NCBI RefSeq assembly: GCF_024399475.1
Contig: NZ_CP101620.1
Location: 1,097,608-1,161,607, forward strand
DNA length: 64,000 nucleotides
Source: Allocoprobacillus halotolerans
Lineage (GTDB): Bacteria; Bacillota_I; Bacilli_A; Erysipelotrichales; Coprobacillaceae
Reading direction: 5' to 3'
The translations under genes and the position numbers were made by a program. The notes beneath the pieces are model-generated. The model was not told where the DNA came from, did not search any database, and saw only the letters and a program-made list of their open reading frames with translations. Shown in pieces: positions 838 to 47,048 of this stretch (its first letter is position 1; the number at the start of each line of letters is the position of its first letter).

Positions 838-1009
838 TCTTTACACCTCCAAATTAGTAAATTTTTTTATACACAATAACATATGCCTCATTATTATATG
901 AGTTTTGTTTTTATAAGTCAATGAAAATATCTAAAATTATTTGATAAATCAAGCATTTTCTTTTACTGGATTGTTATATTTTTAAATCTATTTGCATATA
1001 CTAGAAAGA

Positions 1010-1320
1010 GGAAATCATACACTGTTCACAGTTTATGCACATATTCTAGAAAGTTATGCACAATTGTGCATAACTATTCAAAAATCCACATATATCGACA
1101 ATTTTCATGTGCATTCTTTGTTACTTTTAGTGTGAATAAGAAAAACTGTGGAAAATTGTGCACAGTTGTGCACATGGCATAACTTTTTATGCACAATTCA
1201 CATCTATGAAAATTTGTGTAAAATTAAAAAAAGCCCGTTATATCAATATATTTTGATGTGCATAACTATGTGAATAAGTTGTGTACAATTTTTTTTATCT
1301 TCTATTTATGCACTTTTTCC
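1010..1320. other. oriC: Upstream half of oriC: DnaA-box cluster before dnaA
   Basis: This gene-free stretch of about 500 bases (838-1348) is dense in 9-mers of the form TTATGCACA. Exact copies are at 1033-1041, 1054-1062 and 1187-1195 on the plus strand and at 1065-1073 and 1257-1265 on the minus strand. TTATTCACA variants are at 1131-1139 and 1269-1277 on the minus strand, with near matches such as 1306-1314. Two boxes at 1054-1073 face each other. The position between rpmH and dnaA and the box density match the bipartite origin of Bacillus. Divergent promoters for rpmH and dnaA must also lie here, but I cannot place them with confidence. Confidence 0.85.
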
Positions 1321-1348
1321 TTTATAATGTGTCTTGGAGATGGTGAAA

Positions 1349-2692: not shown

Positions 2693-2841
2693 AAGTTATG
2701 CACAGTTATCCACAACTTATGCACATATAAAAAATAAAAAAACAATGAATAAAACGTTACTTTTTTTGACTTATTCATATTGTGCACAGTATTATTATTA
2801 TGATATTATTTAAATAATATAAAATATAAAGGAGATCATTT
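2693..2841. other. oriC: Downstream half of oriC: three phased DnaA boxes and AT-rich unwinding region
   Basis: Immediately after dnaA come three same-strand boxes: TTATGCACA at 2696-2704, TTATCCACA at 2706-2714 and TTATGCACA at 2717-2725, with start-to-start steps of 10 and 11 bases, about one helical turn. They are followed by nearly pure A/T up to 2830, including a TTATTCATA near 2771 and a long TATTATTATTATGATATTAT-like tract. This layout suits the DnaA filament and DNA-unwinding element. The dnaN SD (AAGGAG) lies at the right edge. Confidence 0.85.
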
Positions 2842-3945
2842 ATGAATTTTAAAATTAAAAGATTAGAATTATTAAATGCTCTAACAAAAGTTTCTAGAGC
2901 AGTTTCTATAAAAAGTCCACTTCCTGTTTTAACTGGAATTAAGTTTAACTTAAAAGATGATGAATTAATTTTAACGGGTAGTGATAGTGATATTACCATT
3001 CAAACAAGTATTCATGACAATATTGAAATCATGGAAACAGGTAGTGTTGTTTTATCTTCACGTTATATATTAGAAATTATTAAAAAGATTGATTCTGAAG
3101 ATGTACATATTTTTATTGTTGATGGAACACTTACGAGAATTGAAGGAGCTAACTCTCGTTTTGATTTAAATGGAACATCTTATATTGATTATCCTCGTAT
3201 TGATTTAAATAAAACTGGTGTTAATTTACAGATGAAATCAACTGATTTAAAAGAAGCCATTGAACAAACATCTTTTGCGACAAGTGAAAAAGAAACAAGA
3301 CCAGTTTTAACAGGTGTTAACTTTAAGGCAAAAAATCATGTTCTAGAATGTATTGCGACAGATAGTTATCGTCTTGCTAAACGTATCTTAAATATTGATT
3401 CTGATATTTCATTTAATATTATTATTCCTAAAAAGAGTTTAATTGAAATTAGTCGTATTATTGAAAAAGATGAATTGATTGATTTATATGTTTCTGATCG
3501 TAAAGTTTTATTTGTTTTTGATCTTGTTTTAATTCAAACAAGATTAATTGATGGAACTTTCCCAGATACTGGTCGTTTAATTCCTGATAGCTTTGATTAT
3601 TCAATGAGTATTGATAGTACAAGCTTATTAAATTCTATTGATAGAGCTTCATTATTAACAAATGAACAAACAAATATTGTTAAATTGACAATGAATCAAG
3701 ATTCAGTAATTTTATCATCATTTTCTCAAGAAATTGGTTCTGTAGAAGAAAATCTATCAAGAGCTTTCTTTAAAGGTGAACCTTTAAAAATTTCATTTAG
3801 TGCAAGATATTTAACTGATGCCATTAAAAGTATTAATGGACAAAAAGTTCGTGTTTTATTTACTGGAGAAATGAAACCATTCATTATTAAAGATTTTGAA
3901 AGAGAAGATATTATTCAATTAGTTTTACCAGTAAGAACATATTAA
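2842..3945 (+). CDS. dnaN: DNA polymerase III beta subunit (sliding clamp)
   Basis: A 367-residue clamp protein. It starts M-N-F-K-I-K-R-L-E-L-L-N-A-L with the family-typical S-R-A-V-S-x-K-S-P-L-P-V-L-T-G-I-K near residues 18-34, and ends with I-I-Q-L-V-L-P-V-R-T-Y, the usual beta-clamp terminus. It encircles DNA and tethers polymerases. An AAGGAG SD lies 8 bases before the ATG. It is placed directly after dnaA as in almost all Firmicutes, with the origin element in between. An intrinsic terminator follows immediately, separating it from the two-component genes. Confidence 0.97.
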   Translation: MNFKIKRLELLNALTKVSRAVSIKSPLPVLTGIKFNLKDDELILTGSDSDITIQTSIHDNIEIMETGSVVLSSRYILEIIKKIDSEDVHIFIVDGTLTRIEGANSRFDLNGTSYIDYPRIDLNKTGVNLQMKSTDLKEAIEQTSFATSEKETRPVLTGVNFKAKNHVLECIATDSYRLAKRILNIDSDISFNIIIPKKSLIEISRIIEKDELIDLYVSDRKVLFVFDLVLIQTRLIDGTFPDTGRLIPDSFDYSMSIDSTSLLNSIDRASLLTNEQTNIVKLTMNQDSVILSSFSQEIGSVEENLSRAFFKGEPLKISFSARYLTDAIKSINGQKVRVLFTGEMKPFIIKDFEREDIIQLVLPVRTY

Positions 3946-9202: not shown

Positions 9203-12208
<3,006 letters not shown>

Positions 12209-12223: not shown

Positions 12224-14683
12224 ATGGAAGAACGTGGAATCAAGAAAAGATCATTAACAAAAGAAATGAAACAATCCTTTATCAATTATGCTATGTCAGT
12301 TATTGTTCAAAGAGCTTTACCTGATGTTCGTGATGGGTTAAAGCCTGTTCAAAGAAGAATTGTGCATGGAATGAATGAACTAGGATGTTATAGTGATAAA
12401 CCATATAAGAAATCTGCCCGTATTGTTGGGGAAGTTATGGGGAAATACCATCCTCATGGAGATTCTTCAATTTATGAAGCATTAGTCCGTATGGCTCAAG
12501 ATTTCAGTTATCGTTATATGCTTGTTGATGGACATGGTAACTTTGGATCTATTGATGGTGATGGAGCTGCCGCACAACGTTATACTGAAGCCAGAATGTC
12601 TAAGATTTCTATGGAAATGGTAAGAGATATTAATAAAGATACTGTTAATTTTATTCCTAACTATGATGGTGAAGAATCTGAACCAGAAGTTATGCCATCA
12701 CGTTTTCCTAACTTATTAGTTAATGGAACAACAGGGATTGCAGTTGGGATGGCAACTAATATTCCACCTCATAATTTAGGTGAAGTCATCGATGCAATTT
12801 TAGCAGTTTCTCATAATCCTAATATTAGTATTATGGAATTAATGGAAAATTACATACAAGGTCCTGATTTTCCTACGGGTGCTTATATTTTAGGTAAATC
12901 AGCTATCAAAAAAGCCTATGAAACAGGTAATGGCCTGATTGTTATGAGGGCTAAAACAGATATTATTGATATTCATGGTGGAAAGAAAGCTATTGTCGTC
13001 ACAGAAATTCCATACATGGTCAATAAAGCACGTTTAATTGAAAGAATGGCTGAACATGTAAAAGAAAAACGTATTGAAGGAATTACAGAAATACGTGATG
13101 AATCAAACCGTGAAGGAATTCGTATTATGATTGAACTTCGTAAAGATGTTCAACCTGAAGTGATTTTAAATCAGTTATTCAAATTAACAGCTTTACAAAC
13201 AACATTTGGTGTCAATTCTATTGCTTTGGTTAATAATCAACCTCAAACATTGACACTAAAACAAATGATTACTTATTATCTTGAACATCAAGAAGAAGTC
13301 ATCAGAAGAAGAACAGCCTATGATTTAAAGAAAGCTGAAGATCGTGCACATATTTTAGATGGTTTAAAAAGAGCATTGGATCAAATTGATGCCATTATTG
13401 AATTAATTCGTTCTTCAAGAACAACTGAAATTATTCAACAAAGATTAATGGATGAATTTAATATGTCTGATCGACAAGCAAAAGCTATTAGAGAAATGCA
13501 GTTACAAAGATTGGCTGGTTTGGAAAGAGAAAAGATTGAAAATGAATTGAATCAATTATTAGAATTGATTGCTGATTTAAAAGATATTCTTGCTAATAGA
13601 GAAAGAATATTAGAAATCATTGAAAAAGAATTATTAGAAATCAAAGCAAGATTTGCTGATAAACGTAGAACAGAAATTATTCAAGGAACATTTGATTTAG
13701 AAGATGAAGATTTAATTCCGGTTGATGATGTGATTATTTCACTCACAACAAATGGTTATGTCAAACGTATGCCTGTTGATACTTATAAGACTCAAAACAG
13801 AGGTGGTAGAGGTATTAAAGGTATGGGTACAAATGAAGATGATATTGTTGATTCATTAATTCATATGAGTACGCATGATGATTTATTATTCTTTACAAAC
13901 TTTGGTAAAGTCTATCGTTTAAAAGGTTATAATATTCCTGAATTTGGTCGTACAGCAAAAGGATTACCAGTTGTCAATTTATTAAATCTTGATAAAGATG
14001 AAAGTGTAAAATCTATGATTTCTATTCATAAAGATGATATAGATGAAGATAAACAACTTTATTTATTCTTTGTCACATTAAATGGTTTAGTTAAGAAAAC
14101 ATCTATTGAAGAATTTAAGAATATTCGTCAATCAGGTAAGATTGCAATTAACTTAAAAGATGAAGATCAATTAGTTGCGGTCAAATTAACTCAACATAAT
14201 GAAGAAATACTTGTTGCAGCTTCTAATGGTAAATTAATTCGTTTTAATGAAAATGATGTTCGACCAATGGGTAGAACAGCATCAGGAGTTAAAGGTATTA
14301 ATGTTGATGGAAGTCATGTTGTAGGAATGACAACAAATGGTGAAGGAAAATATATTATGGCTATTAGTGAAAATGGTTATGGTAAGATGTCACCAATTGA
14401 AGATTATCGTGAATCACATCGTGGTGGTAAAGGTGTGAAAACAATTAATACAACAGAAAAAACAGGAGAATTAGTGGCTTTAAGAGCTGTTAATGGTGAT
14501 GAAGATTTATTGATTATGACAAGTGAAGGTATTATGATTAGACTTCCAATGGAACAAGTGAAACTTGCTGGAAGAAATACACAGGGTGTCAGATTGATAA
14601 AAGTTGCTGAAGGTTCTATTGTTTCTAGTGTTGAAGTTGTAGAAAAATCTCAAGAAGAAGATGAAACGAATGAAGAAGAATAG
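12224..14683 (+). CDS. gyrA: DNA gyrase subunit A
   Basis: The 819-residue cleavage/rejoining subunit. The N-terminal domain carries the quinolone-resistance region with [11 protein letters not shown] and the active-site tyrosine in A-A-Q-R-Y-T-E-A. A coiled-coil tower follows, and then the C-terminal beta-pinwheel with the GyrA-box [10 protein letters not shown]. The QRDR shows serine at both usual hot spots (G-D-S-S), with no obvious resistance substitution. The start follows AAGGAG with good spacing, 15 bp after gyrB. An intrinsic terminator overlaps its stop codon. Confidence 0.98.
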
Positions 14684-42085: not shown

Positions 42086-42709
42086 ATGTCAGGTGTTTTT
42101 ATTACTTTTGAAGGTGGCGAAGGAAGTGGAAAAACAACTATTGCTGCTATGATTAAAGAAGCACTTACACAAGAAGGATATCAGGTTGTTTTAACAAGAG
42201 AACCTGGTGGTGTTGAAATTGCAGAAAAAATTCGTGATATTATTCATGATGTTAAACATACCAATATGGATCGAAAAACTGAAGCTTTATTATATGCTGC
42301 AAGTCGTCGTCAACATTTGGTTGAAAAAGTGATTCCAGCTTTAGAACAAGGAGCTATTGTTATTTGCGATCGTTTTGTCGATAGTTCAATGGTTTATCAA
42401 GGTATAGGTCGAGGCATAGGTGTTGATGAAGTCTATCAAATGAATTTATTTGCGACTGAAAATATTTTACCTAAACGTACAATTTTCTTTGATATATTAC
42501 CAGAAGATGGATTAAAACGTGTTTATACGAATAAGGATCGAGAAGTTAATAGGTTAGATTTAGAAAATATAGAGTTTCATCAAAAAGTTTATCAGGGATA
42601 TATAAGTTTATGTGATAAATTTCCTGAACGTATTGTGAAGATTGATGCATCTTTAGATATTGAACATGTTTTTGTTCAAGTCTTATCAAAGATTCATGAG
42701 ATTCTATGA
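42086..42709 (+). CDS. tmk: Thymidylate kinase
   Basis: A 207-residue kinase that phosphorylates dTMP. It has the P-loop G-G-E-G-S-G-K-T-T, T-R-E-P-G-G (the DR/RE substrate motif) and C-D-R-F-V-D-S-S-M-V-Y-Q-G. SD GAGGTG. Its stop overlaps the holB start as ATGA. The order tmk-holB-ricT matches Bacillus. Confidence 0.95.
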   Translation: MSGVFITFEGGEGSGKTTIAAMIKEALTQEGYQVVLTREPGGVEIAEKIRDIIHDVKHTNMDRKTEALLYAASRRQHLVEKVIPALEQGAIVICDRFVDSSMVYQGIGRGIGVDEVYQMNLFATENILPKRTIFFDILPEDGLKRVYTNKDREVNRLDLENIEFHQKVYQGYISLCDKFPERIVKIDASLDIEHVFVQVLSKIHEIL

Positions 42710-43658
42710 TTTATAAAGATATCTTAAAGCAACAACAACCTATTTTATATCAAGTCCTTTTGCAAAGTTTTAAAAAACAAAAGATTCCTCATGCTTTTTT
42801 ATTGGTAGGAAAAAATGCAAGACAACCGGCTCATTTTATTGCGAAAAGTTTGGTCTGTGAAAATAATGTCCTTGCTTGTGATACATGTAATGAATGTCGT
42901 CGTATTGATGAACATAAATATGGGGATTTTATATATTGTAATGGGCAAGAGGAAACAATTAAGAAACCACAAATCGAATATATTCAAGACCAGTTTTCTA
43001 AATCAGCTTTGGAAGGTAAAGCAAAAATCTATTTGATGGAAAATATTGAAAATTCTACAATTGAAGCTATGAATAGTTTATTAAAGATGTTGGAAGAACC
43101 AACAGCTGGGGTTTACGCTATATTTACTTGTCAAAACTTAAATAGAGTTTTACCAACAATTCAATCAAGATGTCAGGTTATTCAACTTTTACCTGCTTCT
43201 CAAAAAACATTAAGAGAAGAATTAAAAAAGAAGATATTGCTGAAGATGATATAAATATACTTTCAGAGTTATTTACAAGCTATGAAGAATGTCAAGACTA
43301 TATTGAATCTGAAACATTTGATAAATTAAAAAATGAAGTTTATCATTTTATGGATGATTTATATTTTCATCGAGATAATCTCATTATTAATGTACAGACA
43401 CATTTATTAAAAGAATTTAGTGATAAGCAAAGTATTCAGTTTTTTCTTAATATGCTTGTTTTGGCATTGAGAGATTTGTTTCACGTGAAACATTCTATGA
43501 ATCTGACTTATCCGTCTTTTAAGAGTCTATATGAAAGAATAGATGAACAAGAAGAAAATATTATTCATAAAATTGATTTAATTTTAAATACTGAATATCT
43601 ATTAAGCACTAATGCAAATGTGATGTTATTAATGGATAGTATGATGTATAGAATTTAG
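42706..43658 (+). CDS. holB: DNA polymerase III delta-prime subunit (one frame break)
   Basis: About 317 residues. The clamp-loader motifs L-V-G-K-N-A-R-Q-P-A (degenerate P-loop), a zinc cluster C-x8-C-x2-C-x2-C, I-Y-L-M-E-N-I-E and L-K-M-L-E-E-P-T with the arginine-finger S-R-C are intact. The frame is lost at an A6 run, 43224-43229; a seventh A restores E-E-L-K-K-E-D-I-A-E-D. holB is normally essential, so a sequencing error is likely. The gene also hosts a perfect parS site. Confidence 0.9.
43477..43492. promoter_or_regulatory. parS: parS site, perfect 16-mer, inside holB
   Basis: TGTTTCACGTGAAACA is identical to the consensus parS palindrome bound by ParB/Spo0J. It lies within coding sequence, as most parS sites do, roughly 42 kb from the dnaA origin. 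Confidence 0.9.
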
Positions 43659-43670
43659 AAAGGAGAAAAT

Positions 43671-44501
43671 ATGGAAGAAAGATTAGCTCTTATACGTTTT
43701 AATAAAAGTGGTAAGTCTTATTATTTTTCTACCGATATAGATTTACATAAAGGTGACAAGGTTGTTGTAGAAACAATAAGAGGACTTGAATTGGGTGAAC
43801 TTGTATCAGATTTAAAAGATATTTGCGAATTTAATCTTGATACAGAGTTGAAAAAAGTAAAAAGAAAAGCCAATCGTGCTGACTTGGAATTATATGCTTA
43901 CAATGAGACAAAAGCTGAAAAGTCATTGGAAATTTGTAAAGATATTGTGAAAGAATATGATTTGGATATGCATTTGGTAAGTTGTGAATATACACTTGAT
44001 GCTTCTAAAGTGATTTTTATGTATACATCAGAAACACGAGTGGATTTTAGAGAATTATTAAAAGAATTAGCAAGTGTATTTAAATGTCGTATTGAATTAA
44101 GACAGATTGGTCCACGTGATAAATCTAAGATTGTTGGTGGTCTAGGATCATGTGGATTACCATTATGTTGTTCATCTTTTTTAGGCGAATTTGATGGTGT
44201 ATCAATTAATATGGCAAAGAATCAGATGTTGGCAATTAATATAGATAAAATTTCAGGTGCTTGTGGTCGTTTATTATGTTGTTTAAAATATGAAGATGAT
44301 ACATATACATTAGAAAAACAAAGATTTCCTAAGATTGGTTCTAAAGTGAAGTATGACAATAAGATTGTAAAAGTGACTGGCTTAAATGTCATTAGTGATT
44401 TAGTGAAAATTGAACATGATGGTAATATCTCATTTGTTTCCTTAGATGAAGTCCAAATATTACCACAAAGAGAGCATAAACATGAACCAAGAAGTCACTA
44501 A
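43671..44501 (+). CDS. ricT: PSP1-domain protein RicT (YaaT)
   Basis: A 276-residue PSP1 protein. It has the cysteine clusters G-S-C-G-L-P-L-C-C-S and G-A-C-G-R-L-L-C-C-L, which hold iron-sulfur clusters in the Bacillus Ric complex (RicA-RicF-RicT). That complex affects RNase Y cleavage and sporulation. SD AAAGGAG. Partners RicA and RicF are not in this window. The order holB-ricT-trmN6-rsmI is conserved in Firmicutes. Confidence 0.9.
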   Translation: MEERLALIRFNKSGKSYYFSTDIDLHKGDKVVVETIRGLELGELVSDLKDICEFNLDTELKKVKRKANRADLELYAYNETKAEKSLEICKDIVKEYDLDMHLVSCEYTLDASKVIFMYTSETRVDFRELLKELASVFKCRIELRQIGPRDKSKIVGGLGSCGLPLCCSSFLGEFDGVSINMAKNQMLAINIDKISGACGRLLCCLKYEDDTYTLEKQRFPKIGSKVKYDNKIVKVTGLNVISDLVKIEHDGNISFVSLDEVQILPQREHKHEPRSH

Positions 44502-45215
44502 TTATTTATTAGCATATGAAAATATGAAGATTATCCAAAGAAAAGATATGTTCAACTTTTCTTTGGATACTGTTTTATTAGCTCACTTTTGTACAATAAA
44601 TAAAGATTTAGATGAAATTATTGATTTTGGAACGAATAATGCCGCAATACCTCTTTTATTAAGTCGAAGAACTGATAAAAAAATTAAAGGGATTGAGATA
44701 CAAGAAGAAGCAGTTGAATTGGCTTTGAAAAATGTTGAACTTAATCATTTGGAGAGTCAAATTGAAATTATTCATAATGATATTAAAGAATATGTTAAAG
44801 ATGCAAATAAAGTTAAACTTGTCGTTTGTAATCCTCCTTTTTTAGAGTGGATGAAAGAAGTCATTTGAATGATAATGAATATTTAATGATTGCTCGCCAT
44901 GAAATTAAAATTAATTTAGAAGAAATTATTCAATCGGCTGCAAGAATACTTGATAATAAAGGAAGATTTGCGATGGTTCATAGACCAGATCGTATGATTG
45001 AAATTATTAATATGATGCAAAAATATGATATTGAACCGAAACGTATTCGTTTTGTTTATCCAAAAGTTGGAAAAGAATCTCATATCTTTTTAATTGAAGG
45101 TATGTATAAAGGGAACAAAGGATTAAAAATAGAAGCACCATTATATGCACATAATGATGATGGTAGCTACTCAAATGAAGTTAGAAAAATGTTTGGAGAA
45201 GATATTCATGAATAG
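44482..45215 (+). CDS. tRNA1(Val) adenine-37 N6-methyltransferase, TrmN6/YabB-like (one frame break)
   Basis: About 244 residues. The class I SAM-binding motif is I-I-D-F-G-T-N-N-A-A-I-P and the catalytic motif is N-P-P-F. The frame is lost in the T6 run right after N-P-P (44838-44843); a seventh T gives N-P-P-F-F-R-V-D-E-R-S-H-L-N. It overlaps ricT by 20 bp. The position between ricT and rsmI matches yabB. Substrate assignment rests on the family. Confidence 0.85.
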
Positions 45216-46124: not shown

Positions 46125-47048
46125 ATGATTTATACAATAACATTTAATCCATCTATTGATTATATGGTTGAAGTTGAACAGTTTCAGTTAGGAGAAGTCA
46201 ATCGTGCCAAACATGAATATATTCTAGCTGGTGGTAAAGGTATTAATGTATCAGTCGTTCTAAAGAATTTAGGAATAGAAAGTCGTGCATTAGGATTTAT
46301 TGCTGGATTTACAGGTCAGGAAATTCAAGAGCGAGTACAGCACAAAGGTATACAGACAGATTTTATTGATGTTCAAAATGGTTATTCACGAATTAATTTT
46401 AAATTGAAAAGTGTTCAGGAAAGTGAAGTTAATGGAAATGGTCCATTTATTAGTGAGGATCATATTCATGCATTATTAGAAAAATTAAAGGAATTAAAAA
46501 CAGGGGATATTTTAGTTTTATCTGGTAGTATTCCAAAATGTGTATCGAATGATATTTATGCGAGAATTATGAAAGAATTACTGAATCAAGGGATAGAGAT
46601 TGTTGTTGATGCAACAGGTAATTTATTAATGAATGTATTAGAATATAAACCGTTTCTTATCAAACCAAACAATCATGAATTATCTGAAATGTTTCACGTG
46701 AAACTTTTTGATCAAAAAGATATTGTTCATTATGCAAAAAAGCTTCAACAAATGGGTGCAAAGAATGTATTAATATCAATGGCAGGTGATGGTGCTTTGT
46801 TTATCTGTGAAAATGGAAAAGTATATTTTAGCGAAGCACCAAAAGGTGAAGTGAAAAATTCAGTTGGAGCAGGGGATTCAATGGTCGCTGGTTTTATTGC
46901 AGGATATGAAAAAACAAGAGACTTTGTTCAGGCGTTTAAGATGGGTATTGCTACAGGGAGTGCAAGCGCATTTTCACACAATTTAGCAGCCAAAGAAGAA
47001 GTTGATGCATTGTTAGAAAATATTCAAGAGGTTGAATATGAATATTAA
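46125..47048 (+). CDS. fruK: 1-phosphofructokinase
   Basis: A 307-residue PfkB-family kinase. Substrate motif G-G-K-G-I-N-V-S and catalytic motif G-A-G-D-S-M-V-A-G-F are clear. It phosphorylates fructose-1-phosphate made by the PTS protein encoded next. SD GGAGGG. It overlaps fruA by 11 bp. No DeoR-type regulator precedes it, unlike many fru operons. A parS-like site lies inside the gene. Confidence 0.9.
   Translation: MIYTITFNPSIDYMVEVEQFQLGEVNRAKHEYILAGGKGINVSVVLKNLGIESRALGFIAGFTGQEIQERVQHKGIQTDFIDVQNGYSRINFKLKSVQESEVNGNGPFISEDHIHALLEKLKELKTGDILVLSGSIPKCVSNDIYARIMKELLNQGIEIVVDATGNLLMNVLEYKPFLIKPNNHELSEMFHVKLFDQKDIVHYAKKLQQMGAKNVLISMAGDGALFICENGKVYFSEAPKGEVKNSVGAGDSMVAGFIAGYEKTRDFVQAFKMGIATGSASAFSHNLAAKEEVDALLENIQEVEYEY
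46690..46705. promoter_or_regulatory. parS: parS-like site inside fruK
   Basis: TGTTTCACGTGAAACT matches the parS consensus at 15 of 16 positions. It lies 3.2 kb from the perfect site in holB. Confidence 0.75.

Follow-up and report, generated by a model that had tools for sequence, protein, structure and literature searches.

A consensus parS site inside holB, one of two candidate chromosomal parS sites near the replication origin of Allocoprobacillus halotolerans

The origin region and its parS sites

The window, by which we mean the whole stretch of 64,000 nucleotides of the Allocoprobacillus halotolerans chromosome analysed here, contains the following features that bear on this study.

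860..1333, no strand: probable oriC, in which DnaA-box-like 9-mers, mostly TTATGCACA, cluster between rpmH and dnaA
1334..2692, + strand: dnaA, then dnaN (2842-3945), gyrB (10287-12023) and gyrA (12224-14683)
42706..43658, + strand: holB (DNA polymerase III delta' subunit), read as 42706-43254 in one frame and 43170-43658 in another
43477..43492, no strand: candidate parS 1, a perfect 16-bp palindrome in holB, where the holB frame reads (L)-F-H-V-K-H
46125..47048, + strand: fruK, 1-phosphofructokinase, host of the second candidate parS
46690..46705, no strand: candidate parS 2, 15/16 bases, in fruK, where the frame reads (M)-F-H-V-K-L

For the region 860..1333 we took the DnaA box consensus and the reading of the adjoining gene as rpmH as assumptions. 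Three further DnaA-box-like 9-mers lie directly after dnaA (window 2696-2725) and may form a second box cluster in the dnaA-dnaN gap.

As the first-pass annotation had it, the 16-mer TGTTTCACGTGAAACA occurs exactly at 43477-43492, inside holB. The same 16-mer is given as the consensus parS in PMC7383237. A second copy that this annotation did not list, TGTTTCACGTGAAACT, lies inside fruK; its single mismatch concerns the last base only, so that the 14-bp core GTTTCACGTGAAAC is perfect. When the whole genome (a single contig of 2,931,125 bases, or 2.93 Mb) was scanned allowing at most one mismatch, these were the only two places found, one perfect and one with one mismatch. From base composition, about 0.0009 perfect and about 0.05 one-mismatch copies would be expected genome-wide, and a chance match as the origin of the 16-mer was therefore rejected. 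With up to two mismatches allowed, 6 places were found, and the reversed control gave 1; the 4 places with exactly two mismatches, compared with 1.2 expected by base composition, are little above chance. The looser pattern NGTTNCACGTGNAACN (at most one mismatch) added only 2 places, near 1.64 Mb, and its reversed control was equal (4 versus 4). At the level of sequence, positions 43477-43492 are confirmed as a perfect consensus parS, one of two candidate chromosomal parS sites.

Both copies are close to the replication origin, the holB site lying 42.1 kb and the fruK site 45.4 kb downstream of dnaA, in line with the earlier description of the site as origin-proximal. Many copies spread evenly around the chromosome, named beforehand as an outcome that would speak against a segregation centre, are thus not what the scan gave. 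The nearest parS was likewise found 9-60 kb downstream of dnaA, on a shared contig, in 17/17 genomes in which dnaA was mapped. A promoter and terminator scan over 42-47 kb showed no excess.

The holB gene itself reads as two overlapping frames, a feature absent from the first-pass annotation. Both pieces match delta', aligning the gene with same-genus holB genes reveals a gap of one base within an A run, and holB is a single open frame in three same-genus genomes (G002, G003, G004). Since trmN (window 44446-45215, split by a frameshift or stop) and smc (C1:2193013-2195918, readable as three pieces only, one with in-frame stops) are also split in the same assembly, the one-base frameshift is probably an assembly error rather than a real lesion. 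To the left of the window, several further ORFs (by reading, an mnmE-like GTPase and a glycosidase) appear split too, and the split ORFs taken together suggest that the assembly contains indel errors.

ParA, ParB and Noc

The genome encodes a parA-parB operon at C1:1427470-1429114, in agreement with the expectation in the first-pass annotation that such a pair exists; a genome without parB had been its second counter-indication. Both genes are chromosomal. The ParA contains the motif KGGVGKT and lies directly upstream of a Spo0J-type ParB (C1:1428230-1429111), an arrangement that recurs in 30/30 loci examined with strand taken into account. This ParB has an N-terminal GLGKGL and a GERRYR motif and matches the Spo0J chain 6sdk_A with an E-value of 1.2e-63. 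At the specificity positions 173, 179, 184 and 201 it has R, T, K and, by alignment, G, and thus includes R173 and G201 (residue numbering and assignment of parS-binding residues follow PMC7383237). Judged by these sequence features, the parA-parB operon of this genome is canonical, and its ParB carries parS-type specificity residues.

A domain search found 4 occurrences of ParB_N in the whole genome. Besides this ParB and a Noc orthologue, they comprise two plasmid-type parA-parB pairs present in the chromosome, at C1:146944 and C1:2797573, which probably stem from integrated elements; a plasmid origin of the system was rejected, as these pairs are distant and their ParB scores lower.

A Noc orthologue is encoded apart from parAB (C1:1280647-1281423, which is L047:7648-8424), and this raises the alternative that the holB site serves nucleoid occlusion through Noc and not ParB. 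The Noc-NBS system is indeed related, both in its protein, a paralogue, and in its 16-bp palindrome, but it differs in its bases and specificity residues. Noc prefers TATTTCCCGGGAAATA according to PMC7383237, whereas the 16-mer in holB has the parS bases where parS and NBS differ, on which ground a Noc site was rejected. Moreover, the best structure match of the present protein is Noc, its residues at positions 173/179/184/201 are Q, K, Q and R, including the Noc-type Q and R, and its TIGR04285 score is 314.6, just under the cut-off of 315; NBS-like sites occur elsewhere in the genome, the best of them with one mismatch at C1:1481487. We therefore consider it very improbable that the holB site belongs to Noc. 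In one genome of another family (G043), a Noc-like gene adjoins parB.

With respect to the place of parAB, the first-pass annotation was mistaken: it had put the pair probably just left of the window, and parA in fact starts on the right-hand side of dnaA at a distance of 328.5 kb, which amounts to 11% of the chromosome. The 12.6 kb left of the window contain no ParA- or ParB-like ORF (by reading, and for ParB also by domain search), and the whole-genome ParB_N search gave nothing within hundreds of kb leftward. The usual, though not strict, ParABS arrangement of parAB close to the origin and to parS is thus absent, and we counted this against a ParABS assignment, together with the fragmentation of smc in the assembly. 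In 13 of the 17 genomes with dnaA mapped, ParB is encoded on the same contig as dnaA. Within the family, ParB is 107-389 kb from dnaA in 6/7 genomes (the 107 kb of G020 assumes a circular contig), the exception being G006 with 39 kb, and in the other family the distance is 21-60 kb in 6/6 genomes. Because parS is near dnaA in all 17 genomes and ParB is far from it in most of the family genomes so mapped, parS holds its place while the operon moves.

Conservation of the holB and fruK sites

To place the site in a wider context, 60 genomes, namely the present one and 59 relatives, were compared. A parS with at most one mismatch was found in 59/60 genomes (reversed control, 2/60), and a strong ParB orthologue in 58/60. 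One of the two remaining genomes (G028, 82% complete) has a Noc-like match only; the other (G056) lacks matches to parS and ParB, and since HolB was not found there either, it is uninformative and was not counted as negative. The holB-type 20-mer is present in 38/43 family genomes. Of the five without it, two are incomplete (G005, 69%; G060, 72%), and in three (G006, G008, G013) holB is intact but lacks the site. Gene context was inspected in all but five (G061-G065) of the 38 genomes, and in these 33/33 family genomes the site has the same codon phase; its first base is 59-66 codons from the end of holB in 32 relatives. A peptide-pattern search gave parS in holB at 31/49 loci, a proportion that is biased by the presence of FHVK in the patterns and that overlaps with the genomes above.

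Elsewhere in the relatives, parS DNA was found in dnaX or outside detected genes. The loci with parS inside dnaX, another clamp-loader gene, are L123, L125, L118, L150, L153, L164 and L170. In G045, one site is near the start of serS (L157:3566) and one just past its end (L157:4936), and a pair of parS sites at a comparable spacing of about 1.37 kb recurs in several further genomes of that family.

Since the site lies in protein-coding DNA and its translation is conserved within the family, the 16-mer might be a by-product of a conserved delta' peptide, FHVK, with no role as DNA. The codon-level conservation, which the first-pass annotation did not address, argues strongly against this. We aligned 29 of the 33 inspected holB genes, leaving out three partial ones (G001, G028, G034) and the frameshifted gene of the present genome. 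In these full-length genes parS occupies one alignment column range and is the only 16-base window with an identity of 1.0, ranking first of 1019 holB windows with a mean of 0.58. Complete synonymous identity is confined to five codon columns, the very ones that make up parS, so that all synonymous positions are fixed in 29/29 genes, although these codons are otherwise rare: outside the site, CAC accounts for 14% of His and GTG for 10% of Val codons. At holB codon usage, FHVK would be encoded by TTT CAC GTG AAA in about 0.9% of cases per gene, a figure to be read with the relatedness of the genes in mind. Conversely, FHVK was found at the aligned place in 0/16 HolB proteins without the site (3 from the family and 13 from outside it).

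The same DNA is also read in the same phase in the unrelated fruK, as NTG TTT CAC GTG AAA CNN, again giving FHVK. This fruK site is in the same phase in 9 genomes, and in the 8 aligned genes (one partial gene was left out) the site with the bases directly next to it is the only run of 15 bases or more that is identical throughout. A protein-motif artefact was rejected on the absence of FHVK from HolB without the site and the fixed synonymous positions, and we attach next to no weight to the peptide explanation. To judge from these alignments, the holB site is under DNA-level selection. Because FHVK is absent where the site is absent, and the codons are fixed though rare, parS dictates the protein sequence at this place and not the reverse: selection on the DNA fixes the codons TTT CAC GTG AAA, and parS imposes (L/M/V)FHVK(H/Q) on delta' at a position otherwise free to vary.

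Relation to known ParABS systems and implications

Taken as a whole, the evidence makes it very probable that the holB and fruK sites are the two chromosomal parS sites of a canonical ParABS system, with binding predicted by analogy with other species. In Bacillus subtilis and Caulobacter, ParB bound at parS spreads and brings in SMC, and ParA moves it (PMC7333895, PMC5815017). By analogy with these species, a dimer of the ParB encoded 329 kb away would bind the palindrome, load with CTP and then slide out over the DNA on its flanks; the ParB-parS complex would then recruit SMC and be moved by ParA, and the dnaA-proximal region would thereby separate first.

The closest known counterpart is the Soj-Spo0J-parS system of B. 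subtilis (chromosomal type Ia ParABS), which shares the consensus parS, near-origin sites, a Spo0J-like ParB with GERRYR, ParA directly upstream and a separate Noc. It differs in having ten parS sites, eight of them in the ori domain (PMC7022226), compared with two here, and in that parAB is here 329 kb from dnaA. Sites inside genes are also reported for Pseudomonas aeruginosa, in a study that changed parS bases while leaving the protein unaltered (PMC4368675). That species has a cluster of four ori-proximal sites, in contrast to the two found here, one of which is locked in holB family-wide. Intragenic parS is thus already known (PMC4368675), and the holB site adds a well-supported new example to a known kind. 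A literature search that combined parS with holB, Erysipelotrichaceae, codon or synonymous constraint, or parAB displacement gave no paper on the present case, as judged by title and abstract.

A further possibility is an additional, local role of the holB parS, in which ParB would spread across dnaX-recR-tmk-holB-ricT and tune the expression of clamp-loader genes. In its favour, most family genomes retain the holB site whereas sites elsewhere change position; against it, three members of the family carry an intact holB that lacks the site, and we regard such a local role as unlikely. The same low expectation applies to a broader scenario in which parS has been frozen at one holB codon position through the divergence of the family, writing delta' sequence, while parAB wandered by up to about 0.39 Mb and ParB may tune clamp-loader gene expression. 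If true, ParB on the holB parS would couple replisome supply to segregation.

The unlinking of parAB from the ori-proximal parS in this family fits the view that selection holds the position of parS and not that of the genes. With the sites described here, the probable centromere of a group of gut bacteria is identified, and the holB parS would be a clear example from nature of how a DNA-binding site can override protein and codon evolution in an essential gene.
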